A stretch of DNA of 42,318 bases from a virus. A program made the position numbers and the translations under genes. The notes beneath the pieces are model-generated. The model saw only the letters and a list, made by a program, of their open reading frames with translations. It did no database searches and was not told the DNA's origin. Positions 8,062 through 31,075 of the stretch are shown piece by piece (within the stretch, counting starts at the first letter, position 1; the number at the start of each line of letters is the position of its first letter). The stretch is from the IMG/VR virus record IMGVR_UViG_3300000736_000002, positions 1-42,318 of that record; one strand, 5' to 3'.

Positions 8062-8363
8062 CCGAATAGACCTTTATCTTCTTTGGTAGCTGGCTGTTCG
8101 CCGTGATACAAATGGATTGGTTTGTCCTTGCCAACACTAGCGCAAAACCAATTAACCCAATCCTCGTATTGAGGAAGATGCTTATACCAAGATAGGTATT
8201 TGGGAGTCTTTTTATGAACGCGATAGTACCCTAAAACCATATCCTTAAATTGATCAGGAATGAGCATAATAATGAACTTTTCAGAAGAGTAAATTTTCTT
8301 CTTAGGCAAATTCTTGTTGGGATTTCCAACATCTATGTACATATTGTAATGCTGATTGCTCAT
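8058..8363 (-). CDS. Small basic protein of unknown function between SSB and sigma factor
   Basis: 101 residues, Lys- and Tyr-rich, with a cluster of aromatic residues (YYRVHKKTPKYLSWYKHLPQYEDWVNWF). It overlaps both neighbours by four bases, so it is translated with the sigma factor and SSB. No recognised domain. The coupling suggests a role in transcription switching or replication, but that is inference. Confidence 0.65.
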   Translation of the reverse strand: MSNQHYNMYIDVGNPNKNLPKKKIYSSEKFIIMLIPDQFKDMVLGYYRVHKKTPKYLSWYKHLPQYEDWVNWFCASVGKDKPIHLYHGEQPATKEDKGLFG

Positions 8364-8950
8364 TGATTTGGTTTTTTTCTATTTGACTTTTTCTTGACAT
8401 AATCTATGCCGTAACTCTTTGCTCTACTCATAAGTTTATCTCTGAGTATTCCCCTCGCCCTAAAAAGCCTTGACTTAATCGTCCCCTCCGGTATTGACTT
8501 AAATTCTGCAACCTCACGGTAATTGTAACCGTATATGTCAATGAGTATCACGATGTTTTTGTACTCAAGATCCAAAGACTCAATGGCTACAACAAGTTCT
8601 TCACTTAACCCGCTATGATCCTCCGGGCTAGTGTTTGTGAATAGGTCCGTTTCTTCTGAGGCGAAGGCATCAATGGATGAGTCGCTGATATCATCAATTA
8701 ATGTTTCTGAATTTTTTGACTTTTTTCTGTAATTGTTTATGAACGTGTTCTTGGTTATTCTAACGAGCCACCCTTTCATATTGGTTCCACCAACAAAACT
8801 ATCATGAAAGCGCATTGCTTTGATGAAGACATCTTGCCTCAAGTCGTCTGCATCAGATCGATCAGGACAAAGCCTAAGACAGCAATTCAAGAGGAATTGG
8901 GAATTACTAACCAATTCATCAAGAAACTGCTGACTAGGCGCTTTATCCAT
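8360..8950 (-). CDS. Phage-encoded ECF-type RNA polymerase sigma factor
   Basis: The 196-residue protein has the two-domain build of ECF sigma factors. Region 2 spans about residues 20-78 with DADDLRQDVFIKAMRF and the DNA-melting part NMKGWLVRITKNTFINNYRKK. An acidic linker (about 80-120) is followed by region 4 with YKNIVILIDIYGYNYREVAEF and the recognition helix IPEGTIKSRLFRARGIL, typical of Bacteroidota ECF factors. It would redirect host RNA polymerase to phage promoters. No anti-sigma gene is adjacent. Its target promoters are not identified; see findings. Confidence 0.88.
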   Translation of the reverse strand: MDKAPSQQFLDELVSNSQFLLNCCLRLCPDRSDADDLRQDVFIKAMRFHDSFVGGTNMKGWLVRITKNTFINNYRKKSKNSETLIDDISDSSIDAFASEETDLFTNTSPEDHSGLSEELVVAIESLDLEYKNIVILIDIYGYNYREVAEFKSIPEGTIKSRLFRARGILRDKLMSRAKSYGIDYVKKKSNRKKPNQ

Positions 8951-14488: not shown

Positions 14489-14932
14489 CTACCGGTGGAT
14501 GATGATTGGTATCGCCTTTCCAATTGGTTGTTTGACAACGGACTGCTCGTCCTTGTAAAGACCATGGCAGACTCTACCGTCAAAGAAGGTGTAGTACACA
14601 ATGCGTTTGTGGGATAAAAGATCCGGAAGCAGAGTTGACTCTATCTTGATAATCGTCCTGGATATTCTACTGTCAACATCGCTGAGGCTTGAAATAGTAT
14701 TATAGGCATGCATGGCAGAAACGTGGTCCGATAGGCCAAACTCCTCGGATATTTTTTGGTAGCCAATTTCCAAATGTTTTCGGCATAGGTACATTGCTAT
14801 GTGCCTGGGCTCTACGTTGCACCTCTTCTTGCCGGACCTAGCGTTCATAACTTCGGGATCGCATCCGTACTTTTCGCATACGGCTTTCTTTACTTTATTT
14901 ATAAGTTCTACAATTTCTTCGTATCGTGGCAT
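14489..14932 (-). CDS. DnaA domain IV-like DNA-binding protein
   Basis: I place the start at ATG 14932 (MPRYEEIVELINKV), 5 bases after the methyltransferase stop. The 147-residue protein contains a helix-turn-helix block RHIAMYLCRKHLEIGYQKISEEFGLSDHVSAMHAYNTI (residues about 42-80) that follows the DnaA C-terminal domain (R-x-IAMYL-x-R, FG-x-x-DH-x-x-x-x-HA). There is no AAA+ domain. It could bind DnaA boxes, either to recruit or to compete with host DnaA. The C-terminal 60 residues are unrecognised. Confidence 0.75.
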   Translation of the reverse strand: MPRYEEIVELINKVKKAVCEKYGCDPEVMNARSGKKRCNVEPRHIAMYLCRKHLEIGYQKISEEFGLSDHVSAMHAYNTISSLSDVDSRISRTIIKIESTLLPDLLSHKRIVYYTFFDGRVCHGLYKDEQSVVKQPIGKAIPIIIHR

Positions 14933-14937
14933 ATTGC

Positions 14938-16521
14938 TTATTCGTTTATTATTTTTTCTATCAGTTGAATCCGTTGACCAATCCAACGCATCACCGGCAC
15001 CGCCATTGAGTTACCGCAAGCCTTGTACCTTGGCCCATCGGGGCATTGGTCGGCATCCTTGTTGCGGTAAGGAACCTTGGTCCAATCGTCGGGGAATCCC
15101 TGCAAGCGTTCGCATTCCTTGGGGGTCAGCCTTCGTATAGCCATAGGTGGCTGATGAACGCCCGTAGTGTAATTCAGCGAATAACCACCGCTCTCTTTGC
15201 TTTGCAGCGTACCGGCTATTTGTTCTTCGTTGTAACGATTGTTTCTAAAATCAATTGAGTGCATAACCGCAGGGGTTTGGCATCGTTGCAACTGCGTCTT
15301 TTCTTGCAGATTCATTCCTCTCATATCTCCACCTGATTGCCAATCAAAGGCCATCGGTTGCCCGACCAAATGGTCAGTTTCATTATATGAAGCCCATCCC
15401 GATGAACCTTGCATTTTTGCGGTTAATGTTGGGCAAGGCTCTTTGAAGGCTATCGGTTGGGCAACTGCTAATTGATTATCTCCCGGCTCTGACCTTAATG
15501 TTGGGGATGTGCCATTATCCGAATACCCATACCCAAGCCTTTGCATCTTGCCCGGTTCAAAGGCTATCGGTTGCAACACGGCTCCAATATGCTCCGTATC
15601 GGATTGTGAGCGAATGGTTTGCGTGGTGTGGTCGTTCGTGGTGTAATTGTAGGTGTCAACGGCTATCGGTTGGGCAACAACATTCGTGCTTCGTACATCT
15701 CCAACATCAAAGCAATTTATCGTATTGGCCGTTTCATCCTTCTCCCAGGTTTCAAAGTCGCTATCGCTTTGCGCTCTTCTTACTTTACGAAATGGTTGCT
15801 GAAGTATAGCCCCAAAGTTATCCTTGTCCGGCATCCGTTGTGCGCCATTCGCATTCTGCTTGGTTAAGGTTCCTGCGACTTGGCTTCCATCCCACCAACT
15901 GCCTGCCTCTCCAACGCTTCCTTCAACATCGGAGGCAACTTCTTCCCTCTTTTTTCTGCTCGGTTTAGTATTCCCTTGCAGGCTTTCTCGCTCAAATAGA
16001 ACCGCTGCGGCAACTCTCCAATCTCCAAGGTATCCGACAACAAACACTCTTCTGCGTCTTTGGGCGACTCCGAAGTGTTGAGCGTCAAGAACTCTGTATG
16101 CGAACCCATACCCGAGCTCCCCCAACGCCCCGAGGAAGGTACCAAAATCTTTTCCTCCGTTGGACGACAATACACCGGGGACATTTTCCCAGACGATCCA
16201 CTTGGGACGGAGTTTATCAGCGATTGAAAGAAAGGTAAGCATGAGGTTCCCTCGTGGGTCATCAAGTCCCTTGCGAAGTCCTGCGACGGAGAAGGATTGG
16301 CATGGGGTTCCCCCCACGAGAAGGTCAATTGGTCGTTCATCTGCGATTGGGTTTTGGTTAATGGTTGTCATATCTCCCAAGTTAGGAACCGTTGGGAACC
16401 GGTGTTTCAGCACATCCGAAGGGAATTGTTCAATCTCTGAGAACCATTGCGGCTCCCACCCGAGGTTGTGCCAAGCGACTGTAGCCGCTTCAATGCCTGA
16501 GCAAACTGATCCGTATTTCAT
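14938..16521 (-). CDS. C5-cytosine DNA methyltransferase with internal repeats
   Basis: The 527-residue protein has all main C5-MTase motifs: I (GSVCSGIEAATVAW, residues 4-17), IV with catalytic Cys (GGTPCQSFSVAG, near 71-82), VI (WENVPG), VIII (QRRRRVFVVG), IX (RRLTPKECERLQGFPDDW) and X (YKACGNSMAVPV). Between VIII and IX lies a target-recognition region of about 280 residues with four copies of QPIAF/QPMAF/QPIAV and PTL/TTL-like steps, encoded by imperfect repeats (15349, 15448, 15562, 15661). It probably protects phage DNA from restriction; specificity unknown. A second long frame is nested inside. Confidence 0.92.
   Translation of the reverse strand: MKYGSVCSGIEAATVAWHNLGWEPQWFSEIEQFPSDVLKHRFPTVPNLGDMTTINQNPIADERPIDLLVGGTPCQSFSVAGLRKGLDDPRGNLMLTFLSIADKLRPKWIVWENVPGVLSSNGGKDFGTFLGALGELGYGFAYRVLDAQHFGVAQRRRRVFVVGYLGDWRVAAAVLFERESLQGNTKPSRKKREEVASDVEGSVGEAGSWWDGSQVAGTLTKQNANGAQRMPDKDNFGAILQQPFRKVRRAQSDSDFETWEKDETANTINCFDVGDVRSTNVVAQPIAVDTYNYTTNDHTTQTIRSQSDTEHIGAVLQPIAFEPGKMQRLGYGYSDNGTSPTLRSEPGDNQLAVAQPIAFKEPCPTLTAKMQGSSGWASYNETDHLVGQPMAFDWQSGGDMRGMNLQEKTQLQRCQTPAVMHSIDFRNNRYNEEQIAGTLQSKESGGYSLNYTTGVHQPPMAIRRLTPKECERLQGFPDDWTKVPYRNKDADQCPDGPRYKACGNSMAVPVMRWIGQRIQLIEKIINE
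15349..15672 (-). repeat. Four in-frame repeats inside the DNA methyltransferase gene
   Basis: GGC(T/C)ATCGGTTG on the plus strand occurs at 15349, 15448, 15562 and 15661, with steps of 99, 114 and 99 bases, all multiples of three. The repeats encode the recurring QP(I/M)A(F/V) element in the target-recognition region, separated by TLRS/TIRS/TLTA-like segments. Confidence 0.75.
15864..16340 (-). CDS. Nested overlapping reading frame inside the methyltransferase gene
   Basis: A 158-codon ATG-initiated frame lies wholly inside the methyltransferase gene, same strand, shifted frame. The product has a non-random look: PSSGRWGSSGMGSHTEFLTLNTSESPKDAEECLLSDTLE, then LPQRFYLSEKACKGILNRAEKRGKKLPPMLKEALE. 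I recall proteins ending YLSxKACxGILRRAEKRGKxLPPxL as hypothetical entries in many phages, always associated with this methyltransferase type. It might be a real overprinted gene or a conserved shadow of motifs IV-VIII. Sequence alone does not prove translation. Confidence 0.45.
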   Translation of the reverse strand: MNDQLTFSWGEPHANPSPSQDFARDLMTHEGTSCLPFFQSLINSVPSGSSGKMSPVYCRPTEEKILVPSSGRWGSSGMGSHTEFLTLNTSESPKDAEECLLSDTLEIGELPQRFYLSEKACKGILNRAEKRGKKLPPMLKEALERQAVGGMEAKSQEP

Positions 16522-23943: not shown

Positions 23944-23980
23944 ATTGATGGGGTTGAGTGGATGATGTTTGAATTGAAAA

Positions 23981-25763: not shown

Positions 25764-25920
25764 TTCCCGGTTTTGTTTTGTTACGCTGCATCGCACCGCA
25801 TCGCATATGATAGTGATAGTGACTTTTTTTTCGTACTCGATCGAGTTTTGCAAATGAATGCCAGAGAACAACAATGTGTTATGAAGGCAATTAGTTCGTA
25901 TTGTGTTACGAAAGTATGGG
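25764..25920. other. Short non-coding stretch downstream of the terminator
   Basis: Between operator site 4 and the terminator of the HTH gene. It contains two TGTGTTA(T/C) sites (from 25875 and 25902) and no credible gene; a 64-codon minus-strand frame crosses both terminator and operator and was rejected. Confidence 0.5.
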
Positions 25921-25953
25921 CAAAAAAAAACCCCTTGCTTTCGCAAGGGGTCT
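25921..25953 (-). terminator. Strong intrinsic terminator of the HTH gene
   Basis: On the minus strand a perfect 9-base stem ACCCCTTGC / GCAAGGGGT with a GAAA tetraloop (25930-25951) is followed by nine T. It begins 11 bases after the stop of the gene at 25962 and isolates it from the early genes downstream. Confidence 0.92.
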
Positions 25954-25961
25954 GTAACACA

Positions 25962-26789
25962 TTATGCGTGATTTTTTATGCTTTGTGTTACGAGTTCTCG
26001 TTGAGGCTTTGTTAGTTTAATGTTACCATAGTCTGTAATCCACTTCTTGGACTTTGTGTCCAAATAATGTGTTACGCCAAATGGCTGATGCCTCTTTGCG
26101 TCCAACAGGATTGTAGGCATAACATTAATTACACTTTTCAAGAACTCTTGCAAGTCGGTTGGTTCAATGTTATGTAGTTCGGTAACATATCCACCCTTTT
26201 TATGTTTGGATATTGTTATACCTTGACCTTTGTATAACATATTAAACACAACCTCTTTGGCTTCATTCTCTTTTGCCTCTTGTTGTTGTTCCAATTGTCT
26301 ATCGTGAGACTCCAAAGCATCCGTAACATCAGACGAACTATCGTCGTCTTTTGGTTCGTTCTCTTTATTGTCTTTTGTTTTCCCACTACAAAAATCGTTA
26401 AAAGTAGTGGCGTCCATAACATATTCCGTAGGTGATTCTGCGTTCAATGTTATGAATTGACCTACTTTTTCGGGGTTATTCGTAACATATTTCCCCATAG
26501 TAGCAAGACGATAGAAATATGCTTTGCCCATATTAAATGTAACACTAATCACATCTTCCATCGTAACATCAATTTTCTTTTTCTTTCTTAACTCTTTGCA
26601 CTCGGCAGAATTAAAGTAAACACGGAAATCGTAACACAATTTGGATAATTCCACCAATTTTAAGAAACGATTGTGCCTAATGTTACGGAGTTCGGTTAGT
26701 AATTTTTTAACATCAGAAAATTTCACGATGTTACGAACCGAAGGTAAAGCAACAAACAAAGCGACGGCATTCAAAATTGACTTATTCAT
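25962..26789 (-). CDS. Putative HTH DNA-binding protein in the site array (initiator, partition or repressor candidate)
   Basis: 275 residues. Residues about 75-110 (VTMEDVISVTFNMGKAYFYRLATMGKYVTNNPEKV) fit a helix-turn-helix; a low-complexity acidic, Gln-rich linker (KTKDNKENEPKDDDSSSD... to QEAKENEAKE) follows, and a C-terminal domain (KGQGITISKHKKGGYVTELHN...) ends the protein. The coding DNA itself carries about 18 copies of TGTTA(T/C) or complement, giving an excess of Val-Thr pairs. It has its own promoter (27016-27046) and a perfect terminator. I do not recognise a family; function is inferred from context. Confidence 0.6.
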   Translation of the reverse strand: MNKSILNAVALFVALPSVRNIVKFSDVKKLLTELRNIRHNRFLKLVELSKLCYDFRVYFNSAECKELRKKKKIDVTMEDVISVTFNMGKAYFYRLATMGKYVTNNPEKVGQFITLNAESPTEYVMDATTFNDFCSGKTKDNKENEPKDDDSSSDVTDALESHDRQLEQQQEAKENEAKEVVFNMLYKGQGITISKHKKGGYVTELHNIEPTDLQEFLKSVINVMPTILLDAKRHQPFGVTHYLDTKSKKWITDYGNIKLTKPQRELVTQSIKNHA

Positions 26790-27015
26790 AACAATATATA
26801 TTTTGTGTTATGGTTTTGTGCAATGTTATGAGGATTTGCACATATCCGATTTATGCATTGTTATGGGAATGCATACCCAAAGCCAATCCGAAAAAAGTAT
26901 AACACAATTTTTTTGTGGGAACATTACCCACATTGTGTTATGTAGTTTTTCAATATGTCAGAGAACGAATCGTCGTAACACAATACGCATCCCTGCGACC
27001 TTTACTAACGATACC

Positions 27016-27046
27016 CAAAGATACAAAGAAAACCTCATATTACAAA
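27016..27046 (-). promoter_or_regulatory. Host-type promoter TTTG-N19-TATCTTTG for the HTH gene
   Basis: Minus strand GCTATTTGTAATATG with 19 bases between TTTG and TATCTTTG. The resulting leader of about 220 bases contains around seven TGTTA(T/C) half-sites, so autoregulation by a site-binding protein is plausible. Confidence 0.75.
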
Positions 27047-27132
27047 TAGCCCTACAATGCAATAAAGCCACATTTTGGCCGACAGTTTACCAACACGATG
27101 TGAGATGTGTTATGGATTTCCTACTTGATTTT

Positions 27133-27232
27133 AAAAGTATACTATAGTAGACTTTATGTAGAATGTGTTATGAAAATTGCCTATCAGCAAAGGTATACTA
27201 TAGTAGACTTTTTGTAGAATGTGTTATGAAAT
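27133..27232. repeat. Tandem pair combining operator and half-site (operator sites 5 and 6)
   Basis: Two copies of about 44 bases start at 27133 and 27189. Each has (A/G)GTATACTATAGTAGACT (27136-27153 and 27192-27209), then GTAGAATGTGTTATGAAA. They sit about 90-150 bases upstream of the HTH gene promoter. Confidence 0.8.
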
Positions 27233-28254
27233 GTAGCAAAACCCTGAATTTGCTATATGCCCACGATAGTGAATTTGTTGTTACAACAATGATTTATTTT
27301 TTCCGTATTACCTATAAGCACTAATAATTGTGTAATATGTTATAGAATAGTGTAGCAATAAAAAACTTTTGGTAATTTTTGGGTGTATCGTAACACATTG
27401 TTTTGCATTAGAGGTTTTGGTGGGTGTATCGTTTTGTTATAACAACATAAAATTCAGCCACATACACAAAATCATTTGTTACAAAAGTGATGTGTTATGA
27501 GTAATCCTGTTTTTCCAATAAAAATATTAGATGAAAAATCACAATGTGTTATGAATACACATGGACTCGGTACAAAGTCGTTTTGTTATAACACAACCAT
27601 TTGTAAAACAATATGGATTTGGTAAAAGATGTGTTATGAAAAGATGTGTTACACAATTAGATAAATGATGTGTTACACGAATAAGATAAAACTTGTGTTA
27701 CAAAACAAGACATCCTGTGCAATCATTGGTTTTGTTATAACACAACCACTTACCAAAAGAACGATTTTTACTTTTCATAACAATGCTAACCAAAATAATG
27801 TGTTATAACAATGCGAGTTAGTCGTCATTATTTTTGCTCAAAAATAAAAATAGGTTTGATATATTTTTAGTCATTAGAAAAATAATGTGTTGTAACAATG
27901 CTATGATAAACAATATGTTATAACACAACCACCTTTGTATCCAATAAATTTATTGTAGCAATTATTTGTAACATTGATTACAATTTTATCGTATCATTGA
28001 ACGAGCAATAGCATTGTTATATAACACATCATTGTTTTTTTATCATCATTTTTTTTGGAATAAAAATCAATCATTGTTACAACATTGCCTAATTGTGTTC
28101 ATTGTTGTAACAAATGATACACTAAATGTAGTAGAGCAAGACTAAATATATTGTTGTAACAACAGATTGACTAATGGATTGTTTATTCAATGTTACGAAT
28201 AGGGGGGATGACTTTCATTTTTGAAAATAAACTAGAAAAATTTGGGGTAAAGCC

Positions 28255-28342
28255 CAAAATTCCATCCATACAATGTTCAAAATTCCATCCACAGGGACCC
28301 CTATTTTGAATAGGGAGTGCTATATCTATATTATTATATAGA
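28255..28342. repeat. Repeats and hairpins upstream of repL
   Basis: AAAATTCCATCCA occurs at 28255 and 28279. CCCTATT-TTG-AATAGGG (28299-28315) is a perfect 7-base stem, and TCTATAT-TATT-ATATAGA (about 28325-28342) another. They could be operators or RNA structures in the repL leader. Confidence 0.6.
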
Positions 28343-28418
28343 GGGAAATTAGGGGGGTACTAAAAAAGTGCCCTAGCGATATCAAAAACAGCGTTTTTTA
28401 TTGACATGTAATTCACAA

Positions 28419-28500: not shown

Positions 28501-28953
28501 ATGGCAAAGTTTTTAAGGAAGAGGCAGCTTGTGGATACTCAGACGGGGGAGGAATTCCTTTCGGATGAGCGTATTAGTGTTTTAGGGAGGTCTGCGTGGG
28601 ACAGGGCGAGGTTTGTAAAGATGTTTATTCCCGGGTTGGAGGCTTTGGTTAGGCTAAAGCCATCGGAGATCGCCTTGGCTATGTACGTTATGACCAGGCT
28701 GAAGAGTGGTTCCAGGGTGGTTCAGGTGGAGTTTCAGGGGTATTGTGAGTGGGTGGAGCCTATTGTGGGGAAGAAGCCTGATCGATCTTCGTACCACAAG
28801 GCGGTTAAGGGTTTGGTTGGCGAGGGCTGGATGGTGAAGTCCGGAAAGGAGTGGTTGATTAACCACAACATGGCTTTTGTTGGCGATAGGGGGAGGCATT
28901 TGGTTTCAAGCACGGTCTCTTTGGTGCGATCAAACGAAACTATTGAGCCCTAG
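28501..28953 (+). CDS. repL: RepL-like plasmid-type replication initiator
   Basis: I take ATG 28501 (MAKFLRKRQLVDTQTGEEF), giving 150 residues. The body is a winged-helix domain: SEIALAMYVMTRLKSGSRVVQVEF, then SSYHKAVKGLVGEGWMVKSGKEWLINHNMAFVGDRGR. The last stretch corresponds to the RepL-type ending (kL...G.....YWINPN..F.GDR). RepL proteins start plasmid replication, and RepL homologues are known from crAss-like phages. The gene lies directly beside the AT-rich site array. Assignment is by pattern and context, not by search. Confidence 0.65.
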   Translation: MAKFLRKRQLVDTQTGEEFLSDERISVLGRSAWDRARFVKMFIPGLEALVRLKPSEIALAMYVMTRLKSGSRVVQVEFQGYCEWVEPIVGKKPDRSSYHKAVKGLVGEGWMVKSGKEWLINHNMAFVGDRGRHLVSSTVSLVRSNETIEP

Positions 28954-29208: not shown

Positions 29209-29554
29209 ATCAATAGAGGGAAGAGTTTTAGAGCCATACGGTTTTGAATATGTAAATTCGTCCTGGATGAGTGACGAAGCGGATGGCCCGGGGTATTGGC
29301 GGAGTGCTACGCACAAAGTCATAAAGCACGAAGACGACCGGTACACGATCTTTCAATTTGGCGAAATCAGCGATTACGACGAAAAGAACAAGATTTTCAC
29401 GGTGTCGCACTTTGATGAGTTAGGTTTTGTGTGCTTTTTTGGGATGATTGATTGGGAGGACGAGGAGTTTTGCGACAAGTTGCTCACGATGGTTGGGGCG
29501 ATCATAGAGATTGATCACGACTTGGACGACGTCTTTGGGGAAGACGAGGAGTGA
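29198..29554 (+). CDS. Acidic hypothetical protein
   Basis: 118 residues, very acidic at the C-terminus (EIDHDLDDVFGEDEE). Middle part WRSATHKVIKHEDDRYTIFQFGE and FDELGFVCFFGMIDWEDEEFCDKLL suggests an alpha/beta unit. No family recognised. Confidence 0.65.
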   Translation: MKDESIEGRVLEPYGFEYVNSSWMSDEADGPGYWRSATHKVIKHEDDRYTIFQFGEISDYDEKNKIFTVSHFDELGFVCFFGMIDWEDEEFCDKLLTMVGAIIEIDHDLDDVFGEDEE

Positions 29555-29600: not shown

Positions 29601-30314
29601 ATGGCAAGTGCAATTCGCTTTACCGAAGTAATTAACAACAACGGAACCGCTCTCACGGGGAATGCTCTTCGTGAAACGGCTATTTCTTCTGACGACTTTA
29701 AGTGGGCTTACTCTGGCCCTACTGGCACTAGCAACCGGTACGTAGAGTTCTACGACGCGCAGATTGGTGCCAATCGGGTAGCTACCATCACCACGGGATC
29801 TTACGCTAATTTAACGAGCGTCTCTGGGTGTTTGGCTCAAGTCACTTCCTCCGTTTCGGGGGTTGGAAAGATGGACGCCCCTGTTACAGGTGTTTCAACA
29901 GCTACTGGGGCCTTTATTTTAAATCTTGAGCATATTGCCGTAGCTTATTTGACAGCGGCAGGATCTTCCAATGTGGAGTACATTTTTAAGGGCACAAAGT
30001 ATGATTTTGCTGTCAATCGTACTCCAACCCAAATACAATCTTTGTCATTATCCGGAGCTAACGTGGTAAAAATGATGTGTGCTCCATTTCCGCTGTTATT
30101 TTTCAACGGAAACAGAATTTTAAATACAACGACTACTGGTGCATCTGGCTGCATCTTTGCCTTCTCAAAGCTGAAGTCTGCCGGAACCATTCTTGACGAT
30201 CGTCGCTACATTGACGCCGGCGTTACCGGTATGGTTACCGAGATTTACCTTGACACGCCAGACAATCTTGTTCTTGCCACAAATTCAGCCCTTTCAGCCG
30301 TTATTCCTATCTAA
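29601..30314 (+). CDS. Putative virion protein
   Basis: 237 residues, low charge, rich in Thr, Ser, Ala and Gly with repeated beta-type segments (NRYVEFYDAQIGANRVATITTGSYANLTSV). Its stop overlaps the next start by one base (TAATG). It precedes the packaging genes and resembles small capsid or tail surface proteins in composition; no family recognised. Confidence 0.62.
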   Translation: MASAIRFTEVINNNGTALTGNALRETAISSDDFKWAYSGPTGTSNRYVEFYDAQIGANRVATITTGSYANLTSVSGCLAQVTSSVSGVGKMDAPVTGVSTATGAFILNLEHIAVAYLTAAGSSNVEYIFKGTKYDFAVNRTPTQIQSLSLSGANVVKMMCAPFPLLFFNGNRILNTTTTGASGCIFAFSKLKSAGTILDDRRYIDAGVTGMVTEIYLDTPDNLVLATNSALSAVIPI

Positions 30315-31075
30315 TGAGTCAACTTTTTAACTTTTCATTTCAGACACTTGCTGGAGCCCCTGACTCTCCGGGCGCCATCAACAAAGACCAAGTGGTTTAT
30401 GCGTATGCCACGCAGTCCACAAAGACTTTGTTGGTATTTACGAATGGAGAATCACGCATCGCCAATAACACATTGGCATCGGTCAAGTCAACCTTTGGGT
30501 TGACATCCATTGGAACCCCAACAAACATAAATGGGCAAATCGTTTATTTGGGCGAGGTTTTGGTAAACCAAGACTATGTAACGCAAGTTTCTGACCGAAC
30601 ATCTACTCGTGTAATTGAAATGAACCAACCGGCGAGTGCGCCAGTAAATTTCACGACATCGCAATCGGTTACAGGAATTGTGTCAAATTGCGCTCTTGCC
30701 GAAAAGGGATACAAAGAGTGGGTAGGTGCAATTAGCGTAAACGGAACAAACGCGCCAACAGGGGCTACATTTTATAACACGATGGGCGTTGCTGCAACTT
30801 TTTCGGTGGTTACTGGAGGGAACATCAACGGGATTGCTTCAACTGCTTATTGGAAAATTGATTTTTCTGGGATTGTAACTTCGTCAAACATAGCTCAAAA
30901 TTCCGAATTAAGCATTGTTGCGTCAAACCAAACTACAGACAATAACACCGTCATAAGAGTTAGCCAAGGAACTATTGAAGAACCCAATAGCTTCGTAATT
31001 GCAGCATGGAATGCTAGCACTACAAATGTTGGAGTTACGAGCAGATTTATGATTTCCATTAAATTCTTTGCATAG
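30314..31075 (+). CDS. Putative virion protein
   Basis: 253 residues, neutral, Ser/Thr/Asn/Val-rich, mainly beta. The last 130 residues (KGYKEWVGAISVNGTN, VATFSVVTGG, AYWKIDFSGIVTSSN) look like a separate domain. Paired with the previous gene by a one-base overlap, which suggests a joint structural role. Confidence 0.62.
   Translation: MSQLFNFSFQTLAGAPDSPGAINKDQVVYAYATQSTKTLLVFTNGESRIANNTLASVKSTFGLTSIGTPTNINGQIVYLGEVLVNQDYVTQVSDRTSTRVIEMNQPASAPVNFTTSQSVTGIVSNCALAEKGYKEWVGAISVNGTNAPTGATFYNTMGVAATFSVVTGGNINGIASTAYWKIDFSGIVTSSNIAQNSELSIVASNQTTDNNTVIRVSQGTIEEPNSFVIAAWNASTTNVGVTSRFMISIKFFA

Follow-up and report, generated by a model that had tools for sequence, protein, structure and literature searches.

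A regularly spaced TGTTAY array running through a coding gene beside a Rep-like gene in an uncultured phage distantly related to crAss-like phages

The window studied here is a viral contig of 42,318 bases. The terminase it encodes is distantly related to crAss-like phage terminases (~20–25% identity), which makes a host among the Bacteroidota likely. Genes on the left are oriented leftward and those on the right rightward, and the divergent junction between the two blocks lies at 26.8–28.5 kb. The features at and around this junction are listed below in window coordinates.

25877–28191, no strand: TGTTAY array, ~60 half-sites in 53 clusters at even spacing
25928–25953, minus strand: terminator-like hairpin directly 3' of the p275 gene; two array sites lie beyond the hairpin
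25962–26789, minus strand: p275 gene, 275 codons, with 17 internal TGTTAY; its product is a candidate binder
26793–28191, no strand: non-coding half of the array, with ATGTGTTAYGAA singles on the p275 side and perfect TGTTATAACA / TTGTTRYAACAA palindromes on the rep side
27134–27155, no strand: 22-bp palindrome AAAGTMTACTATAGTAKACTTT upstream of p275, belonging to a second family of repeats
27190–27211, no strand: second copy of the 22-bp palindrome AAAGTMTACTATAGTAKACTTT, upstream of p275
28172–28185, plus strand: TAATGGATTGTTTA, 14 bp, the same in all lineages aligned and present once per genome
28417–28458, plus strand: two imperfect palindromes, GTGG-N-CCA(C), in tandem ahead of rep, with lineage-specific inner bases
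28501–28953, plus strand: gene for a Rep-like winged-helix protein (150 aa), the first of the rightward block

Elsewhere in the window, a stand-alone, phage-encoded protein resembling DnaA domain IV (PF08299, E = 5.7e-17) is encoded at 14489–14986 on the minus strand. Two genes on the plus strand (29601–30314 and 30314–31075) occupy the interval between rep and the terminase gene; they are fast-evolving, with ~70–78% identity among phages whose terminases are 98–99% identical. Copies of AAAGTMTACTATAGTAKACTTT lie at 23979, 25302, 25592, 25744, 27134 and 27190. They precede leftward genes and are kept in relatives, and one relative (L031) carries a differently centred version of the palindrome, AAAGTATAATGCATTATACTTT. 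This family looks like the operator of another phage regulator, and the GTGG-CCAC pair is a probable operator for Rep. Several lineages also have, before rep, a conserved inverted repeat, AAAAAC-AGC-GTTTTT, together with an AT-rich element, TATATAGAGGGAA (28300–28400 in the window; 2320–2410 in L027); these may form a promoter or leader for the genes on the right.

The sequence-only reading had reported about 59 TGTTA(T/C) half-sites in 2.3 kb at 25875–28190. We counted 58 TGTTAY in that interval and 59 (25.3 per kb) in 25871–28200; the locus was thus placed correctly, apart from its right end, which is at 28191. The density in the rest of the window was 0.5 per kb on the left and 0.9 per kb on the right. 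In dinucleotide-preserving shuffles of the array region (2.45 kb), TGTTAC was expected ~3.0 times and TGTTAT ~5.0 times, compared to 26 and 33 observed. About 8 TGTTAY were expected overall, giving an excess of ~7-fold over the local composition, while that over the remaining phage was ~30–40-fold. Chance or base composition was ruled out as the cause of the array by these shuffles. As claimed earlier, both strands are occupied: they are balanced in the gene, and the non-coding half has 24 sites on the plus strand and 14 on the minus strand.

Sites within the gene are all single (TGTTAYGa), and single sites read ATGTGTTAYGAA. The earlier description of isolated sites in the gene, palindromes in the non-coding DNA and the extended forms of both was correct. 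These forms are consistent with a symmetric site, many copies of which retain one strong half. From ~85 bp past the stop codon of the p275 gene to the opposite end, the sites lie ~45 bases apart over 2.3 kb, with intervals of 37–49 bp. The coefficient of variation of the spacing was 0.49 in the window, 0.14 in the non-coding part of L037 and 0.13 in L028, compared to ~0.9–0.97 for random placement. No helical (10.5-bp) phasing of the sites was seen in the window, and Rfam gave no match to a structured RNA. To our knowledge, phage binding-site arrays this large are rare. A wider DNA-pattern search of viral contigs found no comparable mixed coding/non-coding array beyond the known relatives; the other contigs returned showed genes for repetitive proteins, small clusters at one place or no more than background.

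Five close relatives (the window, L041, L023, L025 and L020) were compared, and 57 of 63 sites were common to all five. Among intergenic columns, 0 of 195 within cores were variable, compared to 136 of the 1216 remaining columns (p = 8e-10). Of the third-codon positions of p275, 1 of 33 was variable in the cores, compared to 95 of 243 outside them (p = 8e-6). This near freezing of synonymous positions inside the sites points to strong selection at the DNA level within a coding gene. The 17 TGTTAY of the p275 gene dropped to 6.5 (own codons) or 3.4 (phage codons) after synonymous recoding, and the 16 in-gene sites of L037 to 5.6 or 2.8; L075 has 15 in-gene sites, likewise above synonymous recoding. 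In 29 other genes of the window, there were 0–3 TGTTAY each. A protein-level repeat was rejected as the source of the in-gene sites, because these occupy all three frames and both strands and are lost by recoding. The L037 p275 is 35–38% identical to that of the window; five of its sites are at identical positions, and the other 11 of its 16 lie elsewhere. In-gene sites thus turn over while their density is maintained. Conservation, recoding and spacing strongly support the earlier proposal that the array functions in protein binding irrespective of gene boundaries, and we regard it as practically certain that the array is maintained by selection for protein binding.

Every relative covering the locus shows the same order. 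The leftward gene comes first and is followed by the TGTTAY array; next come TAATGGATTGTTTA, always on or close to the right-hand boundary of the array, the tandem GTGG-CCAC palindromes and the rightward Rep-like gene. The array is retained wherever a relative retains the genes on either side, so that the sequence-only reading withstood this comparison as well as the clear excess over the shuffles. Array size ranges from 8 to 60 sites. In L037 and the window group, p275 occupies the leftward position and is crossed by the array, which has ~45–60 sites. In L027, L031, L040 and L045, the leftward gene encodes a different protein of 287–314 aa, and the 8–21 sites are intergenic only; it is solely in the p275 lineages that the array reaches into the gene. 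L028, whose contig is truncated on that side, carries 18 intergenic sites. The TGTTAY core is unchanged across lineages whose neighbouring phage proteins have no detectable relationship. The cassette is exchanged as a unit between phages, since the terminases of L027 and L028 are 99% identical to that of the window, but their Rep proteins are 41–42% identical and there is no nucleotide similarity left of window position 29260.

In the predicted structure of p275, the N-terminal half is all-helical and confident, while the linker and the α/β C-terminal part are of low confidence. The protein matched no Pfam or other family and no repressor family, and the model matched no solved structure, DNA-binding folds included; it resembles a few uncharacterised viral proteins. 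Searches with p275, Rep and the HTH-like proteins against annotated phages gave no match. Given this model and the position of its gene, adjoining and within the array, p275 is the best candidate for the binder, and we lean slightly towards p275 or its positional equivalent as the protein that recognises TGTTAY. The binder is probably a protein other than Rep, because Rep has its own candidate operator in the GTGG-CCAC pair. Comparison of p275 with the HTH-like gene of the other lineages by hhalign gave P ≈ 0.004, but control phage proteins scored as high, and homology between the position equivalents is not claimed. The argument for p275 as the binder is therefore weakened, and the presence of the same motif core beside non-homologous proteins could mean that the binder comes from the host or is some other protein of the phage. 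A host factor and the DnaA domain IV-like protein of the phage are possible alternatives, the latter being less likely because the DnaA-type CACA is lost at many sites.

The divergent junction, the Rep-like gene, the AT-rich non-coding DNA and the even, iterated inverted-repeat sites together suggest a replication or maintenance locus. The sequence-only reading had listed an iteron-type origin and a partition centromere among its candidates. An origin- or centromere-like role is the best fit, since in every lineage the array adjoins a Rep-like gene that has tandem palindromes to itself; classical partition is weakened, no ParA or TubZ partner having been detected. Our leading interpretation, which we give close to an even chance, is that the array serves as a nucleoprotein platform, either controlling a plasmid-like replicon or holding its copies together. 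A single sequence-specific DNA-binding protein would recognise all of the sites, either as the two-fold-symmetric TGTTRYAACA or as a half-site, TGTTAY(R)A, whose partner half is degenerate. With sites ~37–49 bp apart, this protein would coat the entire 2.3 kb in one nucleoprotein complex. Most likely it would be p275, or the product of the gene at the same position elsewhere, and p275 would then bind inside its own gene, with autoregulation as a by-product. Situated between the two divergent gene blocks and beside a Rep-like initiator gene that has separate palindromes, the complex may load or restrain initiation at an adjacent origin, keep genome copies together for inheritance, or both.

The origin of phage lambda lies inside its O gene. 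Iteron origins, including that of lambda O, resemble the present locus in that sites for the initiator recur next to or within a replication protein gene, and multiple short sites are found beside the initiator gene in every lineage covering the locus. However, the array has far more sites, spaced at 37–49 bp instead of ~20, and the Rep-like protein has its separate tandem palindromes. The GC skew does not switch at the array in the three contigs considered; the cumulative minimum is located ~8–10 kb inside the leftward block, which argues against a simple origin at the array, and the minimum itself is a possible alternative origin position. (The minima are at ~18 kb in the window, ~22 kb in G001, ~59 kb in G004 and ~45 kb in G003.) No DnaA boxes were found near the array; TTWTNCACA occurs twice in the window, fewer than by chance, both times at ~13.2–13.3 kb. 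The Rep-like protein had no relatives in bacterial genomes, and its matches to plasmids were weak (E of 0.02 or worse). Being short and winged-helix-like, in a phage with a distantly crAss-like terminase, it recalls the RepL initiators of phage-plasmids and crAss-like phages, and repL has been reported in p-crAssphage (PMC10136315). Unlike these, it did not match RepL (PF05732) in any of the eight records tested, whereas the control matched.

Plasmid and phage-plasmid centromeres such as F sopC, those of N15, pSM19035 parS and R1/pSK41 parC likewise consist of clustered short inverted or direct repeats for one binder, near replication genes and often overlapping promoters. Sites of the sopC type are short inverted repeats within longer iterons, and iterated inverted-repeat centromeres that overlap promoters are established (PMC5016525). 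That the array resembles sopC or parC in function and segregates a plasmid prophage, through a motor or a single-protein Par system, is rather improbable, although regular inverted-repeat sites at 37–49 bp at one locus, beside a divergent Rep-like gene, are what such a centromere would look like. Here, ~60 sites in 2.3 kb run through a whole coding gene with no detectable motor NTPase: there was no ParA/CbiA (PF13614, PF01656), ParB_N or tubulin (TubZ; PF00091) match over the cut-off in the records tested, which may be incomplete but include a 71-kb contig that, judging from its genes and their arrangement, is probably a permuted genome close to complete. In the search for StbA_N, the control itself gave no match. 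There is no sign of a plasmid prophage state. In pSK1-type Par-rep modules, an array of repeats and the gene for a candidate DNA-binding protein are divergent from rep, the same arrangement as seen here, but no homology was detected and p275 matches no Pfam family. The Par protein of pSK1 is cited as a single-protein Par system and described with a DUF536 domain (PMC11500499).

If p275 were instead a repressor, the many sites could block both divergent operons, forming a clustered counterpart of the stoperators of L5/Cluster A phages, in which a single phage repressor has numerous copies of a short site, most of them facing the same way. The position of the array between the two blocks and over the p275 gene, the predominance of one orientation among the non-coding sites and the swapping of the cassette between otherwise near-identical phages, as happens with immunity regions, are all compatible with silencing. 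We nevertheless consider it unlikely. Stoperators number up to ~30 and are dispersed over the genome (PMC6550527, PMC9283540), whereas the ~60 sites here are confined to a single locus, with background density and no excess at other promoters; the stoperator interpretation offered earlier is disfavoured for this reason. A different dispersed palindrome, AAAGTMTACTATAGTAKACTTT, precedes several leftward genes, and no integrase was found. Moreover, stoperator motifs diverge together with their repressors (PMC6550527), unlike the TGTTAY core, which is constant despite differing neighbour proteins. This constancy would be expected if the array titrated a DNA-binding protein of the host, as a sponge, or gave it a place to dock, but a sponge would not require even spacing or a constant place beside the Rep-like gene, and the array enters the gene only in the p275 lineages; we hold this to be quite improbable. 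An ECF-type sigma factor gene (Sigma70_r2 and r4_2) is indeed present at 8360–8950 on the minus strand, and GTTAC/GTAAC occurs within about half of the sites, in keeping with the suggestion that these are GTAAC-type −35 elements for this factor. However, TGTTAT is as common as TGTTAC, and the sites are not oriented upstream of genes. Because they are on both strands, within a gene in all frames, evenly spaced and partly perfect palindromes, and are absent elsewhere, a role as −35 elements is extremely improbable.

The array works like an iteron or centromere array, yet it is not a member of any named system, since it departs from each named family in features that were tested. We propose, tentatively and with less confidence than for a platform as such, that the whole p275 coding sequence (~830 bp) doubles as part of an evenly spaced loading platform for its own product, with protein and DNA roles selected together, and nucleates an undescribed kind of replication or inheritance complex with ~60 sites and no motor NTPase. 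If p275 is the binder, the locus would represent a new replication or maintenance module in uncultured phages distantly related to crAss-like ones.
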